Assembly (NCBI GenBank): GCA_030756895.1
Contig: JAVBIX010000009.1
Span: 42,839-106,838 of the forward strand
Direction of reading: 5' to 3'
DNA: 64,000 nucleotides
From: Synechococcus sp. SP2 MAG
Lineage (GTDB): Bacteria; Cyanobacteriota; Cyanobacteriia; PCC-6307; Cyanobiaceae
The position numbers and the translations under genes are program-made. The stretch's first letter is position 1. The number at the start of each line of letters is the position of its first letter. Below the pieces are notes generated by a model. That model was not told where the DNA came from. It made no database searches and saw nothing but the letters and a program-made list of their open reading frames with translations. Positions 6,516 through 62,070 of the stretch are shown here, in pieces.

Positions 6516-7928
6516 GTGGGAATGAGCAGCGGAACCCTATACGACAAAGTTTGGGATCTTCATCGCGTTGCGGAACTCTCTGGTGGCTCTACCCAGCTGT
6601 TGATTGGGTTGCATCTGATCCATGAAGTGACGAGCCCTCAGGCTTTTGTGGCCCTTGAAGACAAGGGGTTGAAGGTGCGTTGTCCGGAGCGAACGGTGGC
6701 GACCGTGGACCACATCGTTCCCACCACCAATCAGGCCAGACCCTTTGCTGATCCATTGGCGGAGGAGATGCTCAGCACCCTGGAGCGCAACTGCAGCAAG
6801 CATCAAATCGTGCTCAATGGGATTGGCAGTGGTCGTCAAGGAATCGTGCATGTGATTGCGCCGGAGCTTGGCTTAACGCAGCCCGGCATGACGGTGGCCT
6901 GCGGGGATTCGCACACGTCAACGCACGGTGCCTTTGGAGCGATTGCCTTTGGTATTGGCACGTCGCAGGTTCGTGATGTGCTCGCAAGCCAAAGCTTGGC
7001 GATGAACAAACTCAAGGTCCGCCGCCTTTGGGTTGACAATCAGCTGAGCCCTGGAGTGTTTGCCAAAGACTTGATCCTGCATGTGATCCGTTCGCTTGGG
7101 GTTAAGGCTGGGGTTGGCCATGCCTATGAGTTCGCCGGACCGGCAATCGATGCTCTTTCGATGGAGGAGCGGATGACCCTCTGCAACATGGCGATTGAGG
7201 GGGGAGCCCGCTGCGGCTACGTCAATCCCGACCAGACAACCTTTGACTATCTCGAGGGTCGTCCTTACGCACCGAGTGGTGAAGCCTGGCATCGAGCGAT
7301 GCGTTGGTGGCGCTCCCTGGCATCGAATGCCGATGCGGTCTTTGACGATGAGCTGCGTTTTGATGCAGCAACGATTGCCCCAACAGTGACCTGGGGGATT
7401 ACCCCCGGTCAGGGGATCGGCGTGGATGAGCAGGTTCCAACGCCTGAGCAACTGGATCCTGCCGATCGCCCGATCGCGGAAGAGGCTTACCGCTACATGG
7501 ATTTAACGCCTGGCCAAGCCATTGCAGGCGTGCCTGTGGATGTCTGCTTTATCGGCAGTTGCACCAATGGTCGCCTGAGTGATCTCAAGGCGGCGGCCGC
7601 TGTGGCACGAGGGAGGCAAGTGGCCGCTGGTATCAAGGCTTTTGTGGTTCCGGGCTCCGAGCAGGTGGCTCGTGCTGCTGAGGCTGAAGGCCTGGACCAA
7701 GTGTTTCGTGATGCGGGATTTGAGTGGCGTGAGCCTGGCTGCTCGATGTGCCTCGCGATGAATCCTGACCGTCTTGAGGGGCGTCAGATCAGTGCGAGCT
7801 CCAGCAACCGCAACTTCAAGGGGCGCCAGGGATCTGCCAGTGGGCGCACGTTGCTGATGAGCCCTGCCATGGTGGCGGCCGCTGCGGTGACTGGTCATGT
7901 CAGCGATGTTCGCTTGCTTGGGGTCTGA
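6516..7928 (+). CDS. leuC: 3-isopropylmalate dehydratase large subunit
   Basis: [50 protein letters not shown] 6516 or ATG 6522 start. Confidence 0.97.
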
Positions 7929-53440: not shown

Positions 53441-53926
53441 TCAGATCAGATCAGGAAGCGCTGCCGTTGGACGTTCGCTTTCTGGAAGATCTCTGAGCAT
53501 GGTGAAATCTTCAAAGCTGAATCCAGGCCCAACACAGCAACTCACCAGGCTGTAGGGACCTTCCGCTTGAGCGGCCTGCCAGTGATCCGCTGGAATCACC
53601 TGAACAGGGTTGTGCATCGACAACACTTCTCGAGTGGCCTGATCAGCCTTTGGCTTGAGGCACCACAGACTTAGCGGTGCTCCTTGCAAATGGGTCCACA
53701 CCTCATCGGCATGGCTCACCCTGTGCCAGCGACTGAGCGATCCTGCATCCAAGAGATACAAGATTGTGCTGATGGCGCAGCGTTGTTGTTGATCAGGTCG
53801 AACCACAAGGGCAGAGCTTCGATGCAGCTCGCGGTACCAGCCGCCCTCTGGATGCGGTTGCAGCTTCCATTCCTCGATCAGCTTCTCAACGACCTCAGAT
53901 GGGTTGCGTTCGTTCATGGGATTCAC
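53441..53926 (-). CDS. Cupin (DUF985-like) protein
   Basis: LIEEWKLQPHPEGGWYRELHRS, AISTILYLLDAGSLSRWHRVSHADEVWTHLQGAPLSL. Confidence 0.85.
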   Translation of the reverse strand: MNPMNERNPSEVVEKLIEEWKLQPHPEGGWYRELHRSSALVVRPDQQQRCAISTILYLLDAGSLSRWHRVSHADEVWTHLQGAPLSLWCLKPKADQATREVLSMHNPVQVIPADHWQAAQAEGPYSLVSCCVGPGFSFEDFTMLRDLPESERPTAALPDLI

Positions 53927-54783
53927 TCTTTTGGTTTGTGAAATCGCATCAGGCCCCAGCAGAGCCTTCCAGCTTGGCCTCCTTCAACCCAGTGCTCAAG
54001 ACCTGCGCTCATTGTCTTGAGGTACTCAGGACTAATGCTCAGTTTCAGCTCGTCATGACGCCGTTGGAGCTCGTCTCGAACACGGCTGTAGTGGAGGATC
54101 AACATTGGCGTGCGGTCATCCCAAACGTCGCGTTGAAGCCCAACATTGTTCGCCCAGCTGTTGTATCGCTCTGGCGAGCCCAGATCGGATAGGTGAATCC
54201 GTTCCAGGATCTTGGAGAGTGATTCTGAGGGCACACCGTTGGCCGCCATGGGGTCAGTCATGACCATTACGCCACCGGGCTTGAGAAGTCTTGCGGCTTC
54301 TTTCATCACCTGTTGGCGATCTCCCGAGTGAAGGATGGCATCCTGGCTCCAGACCACATCGGCGCAGGCATCCTCCAAAGGCACGGCTTCAAAAGAGGCG
54401 TCATGCACCTGGATTTGACCTTCCAAGCCGGCTGCACGATTGAGTTCACGATGACGGCTGTTCTCGACAGCAGAGATATTGATGGCTTCTACTTTCACCT
54501 TGGGGTTTTGGCAAAGGTGGCGAGCAGCTCCGCCGTAGCCAGAGCCCAGATCCACGATGGAACAGCTCTCGTTGGAGGAGCCATTGAGTTGCTCATCAAT
54601 AAGAGCGGCTAGCGCTTCTACCGTGCGGCGACTCGCGGTTGCAATCGGCTCCGTCTGCGCGTTGTAGAGCCCGATATGAATGTCTTCTCCGCCCCAAATC
54701 TCTGCATAAAAGCGGTCGGCATCATTGCTGTCGTAGTAACCAGCGGCAGTGGAGGCAGCCTTTGAAAAAGAAGATTCAGCCAT
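53923..54783 (-). CDS. Sarcosine/dimethylglycine N-methyltransferase-like (glycine betaine synthesis)
   Basis: ARFYAEIWGGEDIHIGLY-type motif (NDADRFYAEIWGGEDIHIGLYNAQ), VDLGSGYGGAARHL; adjacent to GSMT-like gene. Confidence 0.9.
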   Translation of the reverse strand: MAESSFSKAASTAAGYYDSNDADRFYAEIWGGEDIHIGLYNAQTEPIATASRRTVEALAALIDEQLNGSSNESCSIVDLGSGYGGAARHLCQNPKVKVEAINISAVENSRHRELNRAAGLEGQIQVHDASFEAVPLEDACADVVWSQDAILHSGDRQQVMKEAARLLKPGGVMVMTDPMAANGVPSESLSKILERIHLSDLGSPERYNSWANNVGLQRDVWDDRTPMLILHYSRVRDELQRRHDELKLSISPEYLKTMSAGLEHWVEGGQAGRLCWGLMRFHKPKE

Positions 54784-54786
54784 GAT

Positions 54787-55629
54787 CTAAATCTCGGTCA
54801 TGTCTGTGTCAAAGCGATATTCCTTTTCCGCAACATGCACATAGAAGTCAGGATCGTCATGGCCTTGTTGGTAGTCCCCGAAGGTATTGATCCGTTGAAA
54901 TCCAACCTCACGCATTAGGCGCCTTACATAGCCGTGGCGCAACGGAAACATATTCAGGTGGTAAGTACTTCCGTCGCTGAAGGCGTAGCGGAAGCGAGCC
55001 AGTCCGTCGTCGACGTGCTCCGGTCCAACTTCAACATCCTTCCCGCAGTAAACGTTGCTTTTGCCGCTTTTGGAGTTGCCCTCCAGCAAGCGGTCGTAAT
55101 TTCTGTGATCAAGGATCAAAACTCCGTTGTGCTTGAGCACGGCGTAGTACTCCGCCAAGGCTTTGCGTCGATCTTGCTCGCGGAATAGATGCGTGAAGGA
55201 ATTGCCTAAGCAAATCACGGCATCAAACTCGCCATGAACGTCACGATTGAGAAAGCGCCAATCGGCATGAACGGTGCGCATTAATAAGTCGCGCTCGCGT
55301 GCATTTTTAAAAGCGCGCGCCAACATGTTTGGACTTCCATCCACACTGACAACATCAAATCCTTCTCGCAATAAGCGAACGGAGTGGAAGCCTGTGCCAG
55401 TTGCAACATCAAGAACGGATTTAGCTCCATGCTGATGCAATAGTTTGATGAAAAAATCTCCTTCTGCTTTTTCTCTTGCCTCCCAGTCAATCAATCGATC
55501 CCAGCGATCAACAAATTGTTCAATGTATTCCTGTTCGTAATGATCAGTTTCGCGAACCCGTTCAGGTGAGTCTCCGAACTTTTGAGCATCACCCTGCTCG
55601 ATTGCAGAGGGATTCGTGAACGATGACAT
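54787..55629 (-). CDS. Glycine/sarcosine N-methyltransferase-like (glycine betaine synthesis)
   Basis: YIEQFVDRWDRLIDWEAREKAEGDFFIKLLHQHGAKSVLDVATGTGFHSVRL. Confidence 0.9.
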   Translation of the reverse strand: MSSFTNPSAIEQGDAQKFGDSPERVRETDHYEQEYIEQFVDRWDRLIDWEAREKAEGDFFIKLLHQHGAKSVLDVATGTGFHSVRLLREGFDVVSVDGSPNMLARAFKNARERDLLMRTVHADWRFLNRDVHGEFDAVICLGNSFTHLFREQDRRKALAEYYAVLKHNGVLILDHRNYDRLLEGNSKSGKSNVYCGKDVEVGPEHVDDGLARFRYAFSDGSTYHLNMFPLRHGYVRRLMREVGFQRINTFGDYQQGHDDPDFYVHVAEKEYRFDTDMTEI

Positions 55630-55653
55630 AGATGACTTCTTTTGTGGGAACTA

Positions 55654-55668
55654 AGATCTTGAAGATCT
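55654..55668. promoter_or_regulatory. Perfect 7-1-7 inverted repeat upstream of GSMT-like gene (candidate operator)
   Basis: AGATCTT-G-AAGATCT read directly. Confidence 0.4.
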
Positions 55669-55676
55669 CGTATCGA

Positions 55677-55692
55677 TGCATTGACCAATGCA
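55677..55692. promoter_or_regulatory. Perfect 7-2-7 inverted repeat upstream of GSMT-like gene (candidate operator)
   Basis: TGCATTG-AC-CAATGCA read directly. Confidence 0.4.
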
Positions 55693-55905
55693 TGCTCACA
55701 CCAAAAGCTTCCGAATTCTGGTGGCTGTTGTGAACGATATTTATTCAATCTAACGCTCGGTTTAGAAATTGTCAGCAAATTCGATTGGATTTGATTGCCG
55801 GCTTGCAGTAATTAAATGGGATTTCTGCTCTTTTTGTGAAGGAAAGCATTGTGATGCTCTTGTGCTGGCTACGTTGAAATTGATAATTGCAGGAGCAAAT
55901 CCGAG

Positions 55906-57045
55906 ATGAATTCGGAGATCTGCATTGATTCTCTCTGGAAGATATATGGAGGGTCGGCAGATTCAGCGATTAAGCAACTTCAGTCTGGTCTAGATCCACT
56001 TGATTTGTATCAGCGAACTGGCCTCCGTGCAGCTGTTCGCGATGTTTCGCTTGAGATCCAAACGGGCGAAATCTTTGTTGTGATGGGCCTCTCGGGGTCT
56101 GGAAAATCCACCCTGCTGCGTCTTCTTAATGGCTTGGTCAGGCCTTGCTCGGGTGAGGTGAGTATTCAGGGGCGGCGGCTGTCTTCACTGGGTCCAGTGG
56201 AGCTCAACAAGCTTCGTCGTGAGCAGATGGGCATGGTGTTTCAATCCTTTGCTCTCTTCCCTCATCGAACCGTGATCGACAACGCGGCGTTCGGCCTTGA
56301 GGTGGCCGGTGTGCCCAGGCCACAGCGCCGAGGCTTGGCTTTAAAGGCTCTTGAGCGTGTAGGCCTTGGTGATGAATGTCGAAAGTATCCTCATCAGCTT
56401 TCTGGGGGGATGCAGCAGCGGGTTGGTCTTGCGCGAGCGCTGGCTCTTGATCCACCGATCTTGCTGATGGACGAGGCCTTTTCAGCGCTGGATCCGTTGA
56501 TTCGCAGCGATATGCAGGAGTTGTTGTTGGAATTGCAAGCTGAGCGGCAACGCACCATCGTTTTTATCTCCCACGACCTTGATGAGGCGATTCGGCTTGG
56601 CGATCGGATTGCCCTCATGCAGGACGGCCAAGTGCTGCAGTGCGGAACGGCTCAGTCCCTCCTCAGCGACCCGGCAAGTCGTGCTGTGCGTCACTTTTTC
56701 CGCGATATCGATTCCGCAGCGGTGTTGGATGTTGCTGCGATTGCTGCAATGCCGAACTTTCTGTTAGTGGATGCTGCTGGTCCATCGGCTGCCTTGGATG
56801 CCGTCGTTGGTGACCCTGTGTACGTGCTCGATGAGAGCAAGCGGTTGCGTGGAGTGCGCACGTGCTCTAACGGCTGGATTGAGGCTGATCAGCTAGAAAC
56901 GCTGCGCGCTGGAACGCGGCTGCGTGATGCGATGCCGCTTGTTGCTTCGCTTGCCTATCCACCGCCTGTCGTCGATAGCGCAGGCTGCTTTCTTGGTGTG
57001 ATCACGCCCCGTCTGCTGTTGCGTTCCCTGGAGGTCAACGTTTGA
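55906..57045 (+). CDS. Glycine betaine/proline ABC transporter ATP-binding protein (ProV-type)
   Basis: VVMGLSGSGKSTLLRLLNGL, LSGGMQQRVGLARALALDPPILLMDEAFSALDPLIRSDMQ; ProV-like N-terminus and C-terminal extension. Confidence 0.93.
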   Translation: MNSEICIDSLWKIYGGSADSAIKQLQSGLDPLDLYQRTGLRAAVRDVSLEIQTGEIFVVMGLSGSGKSTLLRLLNGLVRPCSGEVSIQGRRLSSLGPVELNKLRREQMGMVFQSFALFPHRTVIDNAAFGLEVAGVPRPQRRGLALKALERVGLGDECRKYPHQLSGGMQQRVGLARALALDPPILLMDEAFSALDPLIRSDMQELLLELQAERQRTIVFISHDLDEAIRLGDRIALMQDGQVLQCGTAQSLLSDPASRAVRHFFRDIDSAAVLDVAAIAAMPNFLLVDAAGPSAALDAVVGDPVYVLDESKRLRGVRTCSNGWIEADQLETLRAGTRLRDAMPLVASLAYPPPVVDSAGCFLGVITPRLLLRSLEVNV

Positions 57046-57968
57046 TGGTGCAAGCCCTGCCTTTTGGCTCCGCATATGGTTTCGCTGCAGTGCATCAAGC
57101 CGGAGCCTTAGGCCTCGCTGTTGATGCTGCAGTGGTGTGGTTGCTCACCTACGCGCAGAGCCTCTTTGACGTTGTCAATGCAGGAGTCATGGCTCTTGTT
57201 GTCTTCACAGAGACCTTGCTAGCAGCGCCCTCTCCTTGGAGTTTTGCGCTGATCGTGGCTGGTCTTGGCCTCTGGAGAGTGAGCGGTGGATTCGCCTTGT
57301 TTGCACTGCTTGGCTTGAACTTGGTGCTGGCGATGGGGCTTTGGGATCCGATGATTTCGACCCTCGCACTGGTGTTGACGGCATCGTGTCTGGCCTTGCT
57401 GATTGGTCTCCCTCTGGGAGTGCTCTCAGCGCGTCTTCAACCGGTGTGGCGATTGTTGCGACCTTGCCTTGACCTCATGCAGACCATGCCGGCTTTTGTG
57501 TATTTGATCCCGGCAGTGATGTTGTTCAGTACAGGTGCTGTTCCAGCAATCATCGCCACCTTGGTGTTTGCGATGCCGCCGGTGGTTCGTCTCACCCAGC
57601 TCGGGATTCGTCAGGTTCCTGTTGATCTCATTGAGGCGGGTCGTGCCTTTGGGTGCAGTGAGTTGCAATTGCTATGGAAGGTGCAGATGCCGAGTGCTTT
57701 GCCCACGGTGATGAGTGGCGTTAATCAAACGATCATGCTGGCGTTATCGATGGTGGTGATTGCCTCGATGATTGGTGGAGGCGGCCTGGGTGATGTCGTG
57801 CTGCGCGGCATTCAACAGCTGGATGTGGGCCTTGGTTTTGAGGGCGGGATTGCGGTTGTGATTCTCGCTGTCATCCTCGATCGACTCAGTCAGAGCTTGA
57901 GGCTTGAAGGTGAGAGGACGGTGGAAGCGCGCTCCCGTCGTTGGCGTTCGCTGTGGAGGACACCATGA
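57042..57968 (+). CDS. Glycine betaine/proline ABC transporter permease (ProW-type)
   Basis: LDLMQTMPAFVYLIPAVMLFSTGAVPAIIATLVFAMPPVVRLTQLGIRQVP. Confidence 0.93.
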   Translation: MMVQALPFGSAYGFAAVHQAGALGLAVDAAVVWLLTYAQSLFDVVNAGVMALVVFTETLLAAPSPWSFALIVAGLGLWRVSGGFALFALLGLNLVLAMGLWDPMISTLALVLTASCLALLIGLPLGVLSARLQPVWRLLRPCLDLMQTMPAFVYLIPAVMLFSTGAVPAIIATLVFAMPPVVRLTQLGIRQVPVDLIEAGRAFGCSELQLLWKVQMPSALPTVMSGVNQTIMLALSMVVIASMIGGGGLGDVVLRGIQQLDVGLGFEGGIAVVILAVILDRLSQSLRLEGERTVEARSRRWRSLWRTP

Positions 57969-58942
57969 CAGCCCCTCTCTGGCGTCGACGCGCCGTTTTG
58001 CTGTCAGGGCTTGGTTTGGCTGCGGCCTCCCTGTCCAGCCAAGTGCGCTTGAGCCGGCAGCGTCAGGCTGACTCGACCGCATCCACGCCCTCTACTCAAA
58101 AAGGCGTGGCATCACAATTGAGCCCTGAGAAGTCTCAATCAAGTGCTACGGGGCCGTTGCGCTTGGGATGGTCTCCATGGGCTGATGCTGAAGTGATGAG
58201 CTTGATCGCTCAGCGGGTGATTCAGCAGGCTTACAACCTCCCAGTGGAGCGGGTGATGGCAGATATCGGCATTCAGTACGCCTCTGTGGCAAGAGGCGAT
58301 CTCGACCTCATGCTGATGGCTTGGTTGCCGTTAACGCACAAGGATTACTGGACGCGCGTGCGTGACAGGGTGCTCGATTTCGGTTCGATGTATTCCGGTC
58401 GTCTTGGCTGGGTTGTGCCCGATTACGTGGATGCCTCTGAGCTTCGATCTATCGCTGATTTGCGCAAGCCTGAATTGGCGGCGCGATTTGACAACACGGT
58501 TCAAGGCATTGACCCAGGTTCAGGGCTTAATCAGGCCTCTGAACAGGCGTTAGTGGACTACAACCTGGGTGACATGCGCCTGGTTGCCTCCAGTAGCGCA
58601 GCCATGACGGCTGTTCTCGATAAAGCGATTCGAGAGCAACGTTGGGTGGTGGTCACAAGTTGGACTCCGCACTGGATGTTTGCGCGCTACAAGCTCCGCT
58701 TCTTGGAAGATCCCCAGCTCGTCTTTGGTGGAGTGGAGTGGATTCATGCTCTAGGCCGAAAGGGTTTGGATCGCGACCATCCAGATCTGGCCGGATTCCT
58801 CTCGCGTTTTCAGATCCCTGATCGTGAACTGTCTGATTTGCTTCTCATGGCTAATGAGCGATCTGCCGAGGCGGCGGTCGAGGACTACCTCGATCGTCAT
58901 CCGGCCCGAATTCGCTATTGGACAACGGGAATGATCAGCTGA
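57965..58942 (+). CDS. Glycine betaine ABC transporter substrate-binding protein (ProX-type)
   Basis: LRLGWSPWADAEVMSLIAQRVIQQAYN, GDLDLMLMAWLPLTHKDYW, GVEWIHALGRKGLDRDHPDLAGFLSRF; RR-containing signal-like N-terminus. Confidence 0.9.
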   Translation: MTAPLWRRRAVLLSGLGLAAASLSSQVRLSRQRQADSTASTPSTQKGVASQLSPEKSQSSATGPLRLGWSPWADAEVMSLIAQRVIQQAYNLPVERVMADIGIQYASVARGDLDLMLMAWLPLTHKDYWTRVRDRVLDFGSMYSGRLGWVVPDYVDASELRSIADLRKPELAARFDNTVQGIDPGSGLNQASEQALVDYNLGDMRLVASSSAAMTAVLDKAIREQRWVVVTSWTPHWMFARYKLRFLEDPQLVFGGVEWIHALGRKGLDRDHPDLAGFLSRFQIPDRELSDLLLMANERSAEAAVEDYLDRHPARIRYWTTGMIS

Positions 58943-58958
58943 AAAGCACAAGCTGGAG

Positions 58959-60239
58959 TCATGCCGCTGCCGCAGGACGTCTCGGTGGACAGGCCATCAG
59001 GGGGCGATGGTGACGTCGTCGTTGTGTTCTGTTGGGTGCTGCACTGATGTTGCGTTGCTGGCCAGCTTCGGCAAGGTCTGCTTGTAAGCGTTCTCTGCAA
59101 CACAGCAACCTTGACCAGCTCGGGAGCTGATGGGCTACAGGTGCTGCCATCAAGTCCTCCACTTTGGGTCGCAACAAGGTTGCGAAGCTCTGGACAGCAA
59201 GCTCCTCGCTGTGTCGGTTGTAAGGCAGACGATTAATCGTTGAATCCAAGCCAAACTGCTGAACACGGTCTTCGCCCACTCGTCGGAACAGCACTTCAAG
59301 CGTTGGGATCTGGTCTGGAGACAACATCCGACCTTCATGCTCCATGAGTCCACGAAGCACGGTGGCAAAAATTTCACCGGCCATGCGTTGCAAGCCCTCT
59401 GAGGGAGCATTGCCAAGTGTTTTGTGCTTGTGATCAAACAAGCCGAGATCCACTTGGGCGATGCGACGAGGGGCCACATGGCGATACACCTCTGAAAGCA
59501 AGCCGATCTCGAGTCCCCAGTCGGAGGGAATGCGCAAATTCATGGCCAGATCTCTTGTGAACGCGAACTCGCCGGCTAATGGGTAGCGAAAGGATTGGAG
59601 ATAGCGCAGATAAGGCATCGGGCCGAAGATCTGCTCCAGGCTGGTGAGGAGTGGGCCTACAAAAAGACGCGTGGCTCTTCCATGGAGAGTCTGGGTCTCT
59701 AGAGAAAGGCGGCTGTAGAACGCTTTTACATAGGCCACACCGAGCGAGGGATCCAGCAACGGTCGCAGCATTCTTTGGGGGTAGGCCGGTGAAAAGGTGC
59801 GGATGTCGGCATCGAAGAGTCCAACGATCTCAGCGTTTCTGCAAGCCACACCAAGCCCTTGCCAAACAGCCCAGCCTTTCCCAGGTGGTCCGGTCACATT
59901 GAGGCCAAGGGTCTGAAGTGACTGCAGTGATTCGGCAACGGCAGGACCATTGGTCCAGTGCACGCGCACCGGAAATGGCATGTCAGAGAAGAAAGCTTCC
60001 GCTGCGGCGACGTCGTCGCTGTTCTCCGCTGATAAAGCGATTACGAGTTCTTCTAGGCCGCTTAGCTCTGCCAGAACTTCACGGATCAGTCCGAGCGCAG
60101 GTCGGCTGAATTCCTCCATGAGACATGGGATCAGCAAGGACGTTGGCCGTTGCTTTAGCTGACGCCGAAAGTCTGGGAGATCCAGCTTGCCGAGTCCGTA
60201 ATCATGAATCGTGGCGATTAATCCCTGCTGAAAATCCAT
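58959..60239 (-). CDS. gpgS: Glucosyl-3-phosphoglycerate synthase-like glycosyltransferase (GpgS)
   Basis: TSLLIPCLMEEF, GLNVTGPPGKGWAVWQGLGVACRNAEIVGLFDADIRTFSP, LAGEFAFTRDLAMNLRIPSDWGLEIGLLSEV; start at MDFQQGL. Confidence 0.88.
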   Translation of the reverse strand: MDFQQGLIATIHDYGLGKLDLPDFRRQLKQRPTSLLIPCLMEEFSRPALGLIREVLAELSGLEELVIALSAENSDDVAAAEAFFSDMPFPVRVHWTNGPAVAESLQSLQTLGLNVTGPPGKGWAVWQGLGVACRNAEIVGLFDADIRTFSPAYPQRMLRPLLDPSLGVAYVKAFYSRLSLETQTLHGRATRLFVGPLLTSLEQIFGPMPYLRYLQSFRYPLAGEFAFTRDLAMNLRIPSDWGLEIGLLSEVYRHVAPRRIAQVDLGLFDHKHKTLGNAPSEGLQRMAGEIFATVLRGLMEHEGRMLSPDQIPTLEVLFRRVGEDRVQQFGLDSTINRLPYNRHSEELAVQSFATLLRPKVEDLMAAPVAHQLPSWSRLLCCRERLQADLAEAGQQRNISAAPNRTQRRRHHRPLMACPPRRPAAAA

Positions 60240-60249
60240 GCGGTGATCA

Positions 60250-62070
60250 ATGCGACAACAATTTGCGGAGCTCTGTTCCATACCTGTTGCACTTGGCAAA
60301 GGAACGGTGTTGAAGCAGTTAATGGCGCATGAGGGGTTGCCATCGCTTCTAACGGAGCTCTACGAACACCATTGTTCGGAGGATCTCAATCGCTTGTCGT
60401 CGCAATTGCTGCATTCCGAGCGGTCCGCGTTAATTAGCGCCGTTTCAGAGCCGCTCGATCATGGGGTTGCAGAGGCAACGGCAACAGGTGCGCGTTGGGA
60501 TGCCTCGAGTTGTGTGTTGATTGCCTACGCCGATACGGTGAGTGCCCATGATCAGCCTGGGCTCCGTTGTTTGCAGGCCCTTCTGCACGAGCATTTCAAC
60601 GGGCTCTCATCGGTGGTGCATGTGCTGCCGTTCTTGCGTGCAACCAGTGACGGAGGTTTTGCTGTTGCCAGTCATGAGCAGATTGACCAGCGCTTCGGCG
60701 ATTGGAATGACTTGGCTGCGTTGGCAGAAGGTCGCCAGTTGATGGCTGATTTGGTTCTCAATCACATTTCAGCGTCTCACCCCTGGGTTCGGGCTTTTCT
60801 GAAAGGAGAACAACCTGGCGCGCAATGTGTGTTGGCAGCTGCTCCCAACCCTTGTTGGGACAACGTTGTGCGTCCACGTAGTTCGGCTCTTTTCACCACT
60901 CTGGCGACAGATCGAGGCCCAGAAACGGTTTGGACCACGTTTGGGCCCGATCAAGTGGATGTGAACTGGCGAGAGCCTGAAGTGTTGCTTGGATTCACAC
61001 GCCTCCTCGATCTTTTTTGCAGGTATGGCGTCCAATGGTTGCGCCTTGATGCCGTGGGGTTTGTTTGGAAAGAGCCTTTTAGTGACTGCATCCATCAGCC
61101 TCAGGCCCACCGGTTGGTTGAAGTGTTGCGCCTTCTCTTGGAATCGCGATGTCCTCAGGGAGTGGTGGTAACGGAAACGAATGTTCCCGAGCAGGAAAAT
61201 CTCTCTTATTTGACCACTGGCGCTGAAGCTCACCTCGCTTACAACTTCCCCTTGCCTCCGCTTGTTCTCGAGGCCTGTCTCAGCCGTCGTGCTGATCTGT
61301 TGAACGACTGGCTGACGCGTTGGCCTCAGCTCCCTCAGCAGACAGGGCTGCTCAATTTCACGGCCTGTCACGACGGGATTGGGTTGCGGCCACTCGAGGG
61401 CTTGATGGAATCCGATCGATTGCTCCAGTTGCTGAAGCAATGCGAGCAGCGGGGTGGTTTGGTGAGTCACCGGCGCTTGGCCGATGGACAGGAGGTTCCC
61501 TATGAGATCAATATCAGCTGGTGGAGTGCCATGGCGGCTCCTGGGCGGGATCCATCACACCATCAACGAGCGCGTTTTTTGTTAACGCAGTTGCTGCTGC
61601 TTGCTTTGCCCGGTGTGCCTGCGTTCTACCTGCCGGCATTACTCGCAACCCCGAATGACAATGCTCGCTTTCGCATCAGCGGTCATCGTCGCGATCTCAA
61701 TCGTCCTCAGTTTCAACTCGACCGATTAGAGCGATTATTGGCTGATCCCGAAAGCGATACCAGTCAGGTGGTGGTGTCACTGCAACAAGCGATGGCTATC
61801 CGTCGTGGCCAGGCGGCGTTAGATCCCTTTTCGGCAATGAAGGTCCTCAGCGAAGGCCGCTCTGATCTCGTGATTCTGCAGAGGGGAGAAGAGGCAAACA
61901 CTCTGTTTGCGATTCACAATTTCAGTGATGTCCGCCTCAGTGTCCCGTTGAGCACCCTTGCTGATTCCAGAGAATCTGTTTGGCATGACGTGTTGACAGG
62001 GCATTCTCTCGTTGCGGGCCAAACGGCTCTCGATCTTGAGCCGTTTGCTGTGCATTGGTTGATTCGATGA
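60250..62070 (+). CDS. GH13 sucrose/glucosylglycerate phosphorylase-like enzyme; start may be further downstream (TTG 60310 or ATG 60325)
   Basis: VVHVLPFLRATSDGGFAVASHEQIDQRFGDWNDL, LMADLVLNHISASHPW, WLRLDAVGFVWKE, VVVTETNVPEQENLSYL. Confidence 0.87.
   Translation: MRQQFAELCSIPVALGKGTVLKQLMAHEGLPSLLTELYEHHCSEDLNRLSSQLLHSERSALISAVSEPLDHGVAEATATGARWDASSCVLIAYADTVSAHDQPGLRCLQALLHEHFNGLSSVVHVLPFLRATSDGGFAVASHEQIDQRFGDWNDLAALAEGRQLMADLVLNHISASHPWVRAFLKGEQPGAQCVLAAAPNPCWDNVVRPRSSALFTTLATDRGPETVWTTFGPDQVDVNWREPEVLLGFTRLLDLFCRYGVQWLRLDAVGFVWKEPFSDCIHQPQAHRLVEVLRLLLESRCPQGVVVTETNVPEQENLSYLTTGAEAHLAYNFPLPPLVLEACLSRRADLLNDWLTRWPQLPQQTGLLNFTACHDGIGLRPLEGLMESDRLLQLLKQCEQRGGLVSHRRLADGQEVPYEINISWWSAMAAPGRDPSHHQRARFLLTQLLLLALPGVPAFYLPALLATPNDNARFRISGHRRDLNRPQFQLDRLERLLADPESDTSQVVVSLQQAMAIRRGQAALDPFSAMKVLSEGRSDLVILQRGEEANTLFAIHNFSDVRLSVPLSTLADSRESVWHDVLTGHSLVAGQTALDLEPFAVHWLIR

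Follow-up and report, generated by a model that had tools for sequence, protein, structure and literature searches.

Many marine picocyanobacteria use betaine as a major osmolyte, and how they regulate its synthesis is, to our knowledge, poorly known. In a 64,000-nt stretch of DNA from Synechococcus sp. SP2 MAG (hereafter, the window), the genes for betaine synthesis and uptake diverge from a common gap of 276 bp (positions 55630–55905) that carries three inverted repeats, which raises the question of whether these are operators, structures in an mRNA or chance palindromes. The original prediction was that they may be either of the first two and coordinate both processes in response to salt. 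On the minus strand, the glycine/sarcosine N-methyltransferase gene GSMT (gbmt1; 54787–55629; NCBIfam NF051855 equivalog, 445.8 bits against a cut-off of 350) is the first of the betaine-synthesis pair GSMT–SDMT. The sarcosine/dimethylglycine N-methyltransferase gene SDMT (gbmt2; 53923–54783, minus strand) starts 3 nt downstream of it and has NF041675 as its top match (E = 5.1e-89), with a score of 298.9 bits that lies below the cut-off of 550. On the plus strand lie proV (55906–57045), encoding the betaine ABC transporter ATPase (TIGR01186, 356.2 bits against a cut-off of 326.6), proW and proX. This GSMT/SDMT–proVWX neighbourhood is also described for marine Synechococcus (PMC10087775, PMC2874817), the former also stating that proX co-occurs with gbmt1/gbmt2 in picocyanobacteria, and in strain LTW-R high salinity raises the gsmt and sdmt transcripts 2.6–2.9 times (PMC7771541).

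These genes form part of a compatible-solute island (53441–62070) that holds SDMT, GSMT, proV, proW and proX together with a gpgS-like glucosyl-3-phosphoglycerate synthase (58959–60245, minus strand) and a sucrose-phosphorylase-like enzyme (60250–62070, plus strand); a Cupin_5 (DUF985) gene adjoins the island. Within the family (Cyanobiaceae), 40 of 400 genomes have GSMT at E ≤ 1e-60. One further genome region (G028, contig 18, approximately 7306–7730; L023, L024 and L028) contains a fragmented GSMT with three matches, covering residues 3–94, 135–164 and 249–280, which is possibly a decaying gene.

Inspection of the sequence confirmed all three inverted repeats where the original prediction had placed them. 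Repeat 1, AGATCTT-G-AAGATCT (AGATCTT-C-AAGATCT on the minus strand), occupies 55654–55668. Repeat 2, first described as TGCATTG-AC-CAATGCA at 55677–55692, is one pair longer, with the 8+2+8 form ATGCATTG-AC-CAATGCAT at 55676–55693 (ATGCATTG-GT-CAATGCAT on the minus strand). Repeat 3, AGCAT-TGTG-ATGCT (55845–55858, plus strand), overlaps the likely −35 region of proV. The chance expectation was estimated by dinucleotide shuffles of the 276-bp gap and of the 64-kb window, our genome-wide repeat statistics being based on the window plus sampled regions. At least two repeats with an arm of at least 7 and a loop of at most 2 are improbable in this very gap (P = 0.0006); the whole window, however, holds 23 such repeats, and 2 of 40 shuffled windows contained two of this class no more than 30 bp apart (~0.05), so that, given free choice of place, repeats 1 and 2 are only mildly surprising as a pair. 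Because at least three weaker repeats (arm of at least 5, loop of at most 4) are expected in the gap often enough (P = 0.19), repeat 3 adds nothing. The original prediction had cautioned that short repeats may occur by chance, and repeat 3 is at chance level. The GCATTG half-site said to link repeats 2 and 3 does exist; being a 6-mer, however, it is expected on either strand in about one gap in eight.

Alignment of the orthologous gaps, suggested along with the original prediction as a check, covered five close relatives (G025, G022, G006, G007 and G016) with gaps of 275–277 bp and 96–99% identical GSMT, and it went against most of the palindromes. In the order window, G025, G022, G006, G007 and G016, the pairs kept number 7, 7, 2, 3, 4 and 2 of 7 for repeat 1, and 8, 7, 4, 4, 5 and 4 of 8 for repeat 2. 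Repeat 3 is intact in the window and G025 alone and broken in L004–L007; like repeat 1, it is thus broken in four of the five relatives, persisting only in the nearest one. In the relatives, the outer arms of repeat 2 are broken, while a GCAT-N6-ATGC core is kept in all six sequences, at an almost constant distance from the ATG. Column identity is 0.68, 0.81 and 0.69 for repeats 1, 2 and 3, respectively, and 0.71 for the whole gap. Since the 33 nt directly upstream of repeat 2, outside the palindrome, reach 0.83, repeat 2 belongs to a conserved block rather than being singled out within it; the best conserved leader block of this clade spans 55676–55733 on the minus strand (mean pairwise column identity of 0.80 versus 0.71 for the whole gap). 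In the orthologous gaps of these relatives, the palindromes are therefore not better preserved than their flanks, and no conserved palindromic operator emerged.

What the comparison did reveal is a putative promoter. A consensus scan placed CTGACA-17-TAGATT at 55775–55747 on the minus strand, with a −35 box CTGACA (55770–55775) and, after a 17-nt spacer, a −10 box TAGATT (55747–55752). The rate of such matches alone is no better than in shuffles, but CTGACA or a near-CTGACA recurs at the corresponding position in most of the family's GSMT loci, and the pattern C[TA]GAC[AG]-N17-TAnnnT is present in 15 of 22 representative GSMT upstream regions and, at other spacers (12–16 and 18–23), in none of the 22. 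The family-wide form resembles CTGACA-N17-TAGGTT, and its −10 box lies 110–128 nt from the ATG in most promoter-bearing loci (134 nt in two weaker ones); among the representatives, G007, L040, L088, L090 and L096 lack a clear match. Together, these data make a convincing case for a GSMT promoter strongly conserved across marine picocyanobacteria, as judged from sequence comparison. Transcription would be expected to start near 55740, and because of this position, repeats 1 and 2 would lie within the transcribed leader, a putative 5′-UTR of ~110 nt (55630–55740, minus strand). For proV, a tentative −10 box TACGTT (55870–55875, plus strand) is suggested by the alignment, with TACGTT, TAAGTT or TATAGT there in the six close sequences. 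Our literature search found no usable transcription-start map for marine Synechococcus.

The leader is conserved within clades. In clade B, its two halves score 0.95/0.92, the proV-side segment 0.71 and the third codon positions of GSMT 0.73; the corresponding values are 0.88/0.85 versus 0.57 and 0.50 in clade G, and 0.92/0.93 versus 0.88 and 0.85 in clade C. In the clade of the window, the difference is small (0.74 for the leader versus 0.68 and 0.70). The leader sequence itself differs between clades: in L008–L018, for instance, clade B (95%/92%) and clade C (92%/93%) each conserve it strongly, although their sequences are unrelated to each other. An ATG at −52 is common to the clade of the window, where it opens frames of 30, 37 (still open), 2, 2, 13 and 12 codons; coding use of the leader, or a leader peptide, was rejected on account of these varying lengths and of single-base indels in the clade C leaders. 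No intrinsic terminator or attenuator (a GC-rich stem followed by a T run) was detected in 55560–55960, and Rfam gave no match at the gathering score, with three weak hits below it, none of them in the gap. As a DNA query in the genus, the leader retrieved nothing beyond the GSMT leaders of the window, G025 and G016, which led us to reject the idea that it is a dispersed element. Strong 9-bp inverted repeats with 1–2-nt loops, GCCTCACAAGTTGTGAGGC and AGTTCACGACTTCGTGAACT, were observed in the distant GSMT leaders L021 and L097.

Predicted folds of the window leader, minimum-energy and centroid alike, show hairpins at both repeat 1 and repeat 2; the folding energy of this leader is ordinary (z = −0.96), and several relatives have z > 0. 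Upstream of repeat 2, a possible hairpin that had been missed previously, CCA(A/G)AA...TTTTGG (55694–55726, minus strand), appears in the RNAalifold consensus and when three relatives are folded singly; it is kept in five of the six sequences, among which it has no two-sided compensatory change. For these six sequences, RNAalifold gave a positive (unfavourable) covariation term and a two-sided change in none of the 28 pairs of the consensus. Counted as named, repeats 1 and 2 have stems with two two-sided cells, matched in 24 of 500 shuffles; six close leaders are too few for a covariation test. A broader comparison covered 22 GSMT leaders across the family, which hold 12 repeats (arm of at least 6, loop of at most 6) versus 3.6 expected, while five same-size controls (GSMT, proV and upstream segments) hold 4–8 versus 3.1–4.6 expected. 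Against 73 leaders of divergent genes from four genomes, cut upstream of start codons, random sets of 22 rarely reach 12 repeats (P = 0.004) or the mean folding z of −0.86 that the GSMT leaders have at 110 nt (P = 0.0005); restricting the set to a single 105-nt leader for each clade brings the mean z to −0.64, the values scattering widely. These tests were chosen post hoc and applied to leaders related by descent, and the control segments may include promoter instead of transcribed sequence, so that the enrichment in repeats and foldability hints at structure and is modest.

How do the candidate explanations fare against these data? The preferred one, to which we give about an even chance, is that repeats 1 and 2 are lineage-specific hairpins in a functional leader of the GSMT–SDMT mRNA, which would be transcribed from a conserved promoter; sequence comparison supports this explanation as regards the promoter, the length of the leader and its conservation within clades. 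Its main rival is plain chance, namely that functionless palindromes arose in an AT-rich leader and were retained in the nearest relative by descent, with the promoter and some leader bases being what matters. We regard this rival as a less likely but serious contender, as only one relative retains sites 1 and 3, repeats of this class are numerous across the window and close pairs do turn up in shuffled windows. It accounts less well for two such repeats in one gap, for their over-representation in the GSMT leaders of other clades and for the core of site 2, kept in six of six close sequences.

That core, invariant, palindromic and nearly fixed in its distance to the ATG, would suit a dimeric transcription factor that binds GCAT-N6-ATGC within the transcribed leader, an interpretation that we nonetheless consider quite unlikely. 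Within site 2, both TGCATTGNNCAATGCA and the core, TGCATNNNTCAATGC, occur once in the genome, as does AGATCTTNAAGATCT without mismatch, and no second exact copy of either palindrome near GSMT was found there; this argues against a regulon, and any regulon of site 2 would consist of this gap alone. A genus-wide search for the core returned one copy per GSMT locus of the clade of the window plus scattered others: two fall inside long open frames, and TGCATCTGTCAATGC, which several relatives have as their core, turns up as well in two GSMT-less genomes (L076 and L077), there with other neighbours, next to a gene whose predicted product we take to resemble AcsF. Other GSMT-bearing clades have unrelated leaders without the core at the corresponding place, the bases just upstream of the palindrome are conserved equally well, and we recognised no gene for a regulator in the stretch examined. 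Still less probable, to the point of being very hard to sustain, is the originally predicted joint operator, in which the three repeats would coordinate GSMT–SDMT and proVWX in response to salt. The divergent genes do have one common gap, and proX is found together with gbmt1/gbmt2 in picocyanobacteria (PMC10087775); two of the three sites, however, are not conserved among close relatives, the half-site in common is short, and the repeats lie near opposite genes, the pair in the GSMT leader and the single one over the proV promoter. A palindromic operator common to synthesis and uptake is accordingly not supported by the sequences compared, because repeats 1 and 3 and the outer arms of repeat 2 are not kept, exact copies do not recur and the leaders of other clades are unrelated. 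Of the original alternatives, operators or mRNA structures, the former thus fell together with the proposed coordination, through sites broken in four of five relatives, the lack of exact recurrence and the 6-mer link. The latter survives weakly and for GSMT only: repeats 1 and 2 lie inside the putative leader and the leaders of other clades are richer in repeats than controls, but neither conserved sequence nor covariation accompanies the structure.

If repeats 1 and 2 are indeed leader hairpins, the vertically inherited promoter CTGACA-N17-TAGATT would produce a GSMT–SDMT leader of ~110 nt that folds in the cell, where the hairpins may adjust the stability of the mRNA or the access of ribosomes to it. 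Individual hairpins could be replaced from one lineage to the next without loss of the leader itself, and repeat 3 would be a chance palindrome over the proV promoter, not part of a joint operator. A bolder version, which we think unlikely, is that in marine picocyanobacteria the GSMT leader, of conserved length, fast-evolving and structured, acts as a sensor of ionic strength or as the target of a small RNA and so sets betaine synthesis post-transcriptionally, hairpins being swapped between lineages with function kept. The comparison thus yields a precise putative promoter and leader, and moves the focus from three palindromes to a 5′-UTR of ~110 nt in a locus that is mostly ordinary, a promoter plus a leader.

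Housekeeping-type bacterial promoters have a −35 TTGACA, a 17-nt spacer and a −10 TATAAT; the putative GSMT promoter is similar in its two boxes, its spacer and its near-consensus −35, and differs in its weak, TAGGTT-like −10. Marine Synechococcus and Prochlorococcus gbmt1/gbmt2–proU loci have the same genes in the same arrangement, with synthesis adjoining a betaine transporter, and the sections concerned treat genes and a predicted network rather than the promoter or leader (PMC10087775, PMC2874817). Among characterised systems, betT and proU of E. coli have osmotically regulated mRNAs under RNase III control at structured regions (PMC4067347). The likeness lies in mRNA stems in compatible-solute genes, the stability of the E. 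coli mRNAs varying with osmolarity; unlike here, however, the control was demonstrated by cleavage assays for those gammaproteobacterial transporter genes, with the betT structure residing within the coding sequence (PMC4067347), whereas the GSMT leader offers predicted stems only, and in a biosynthesis gene of a cyanobacterium.
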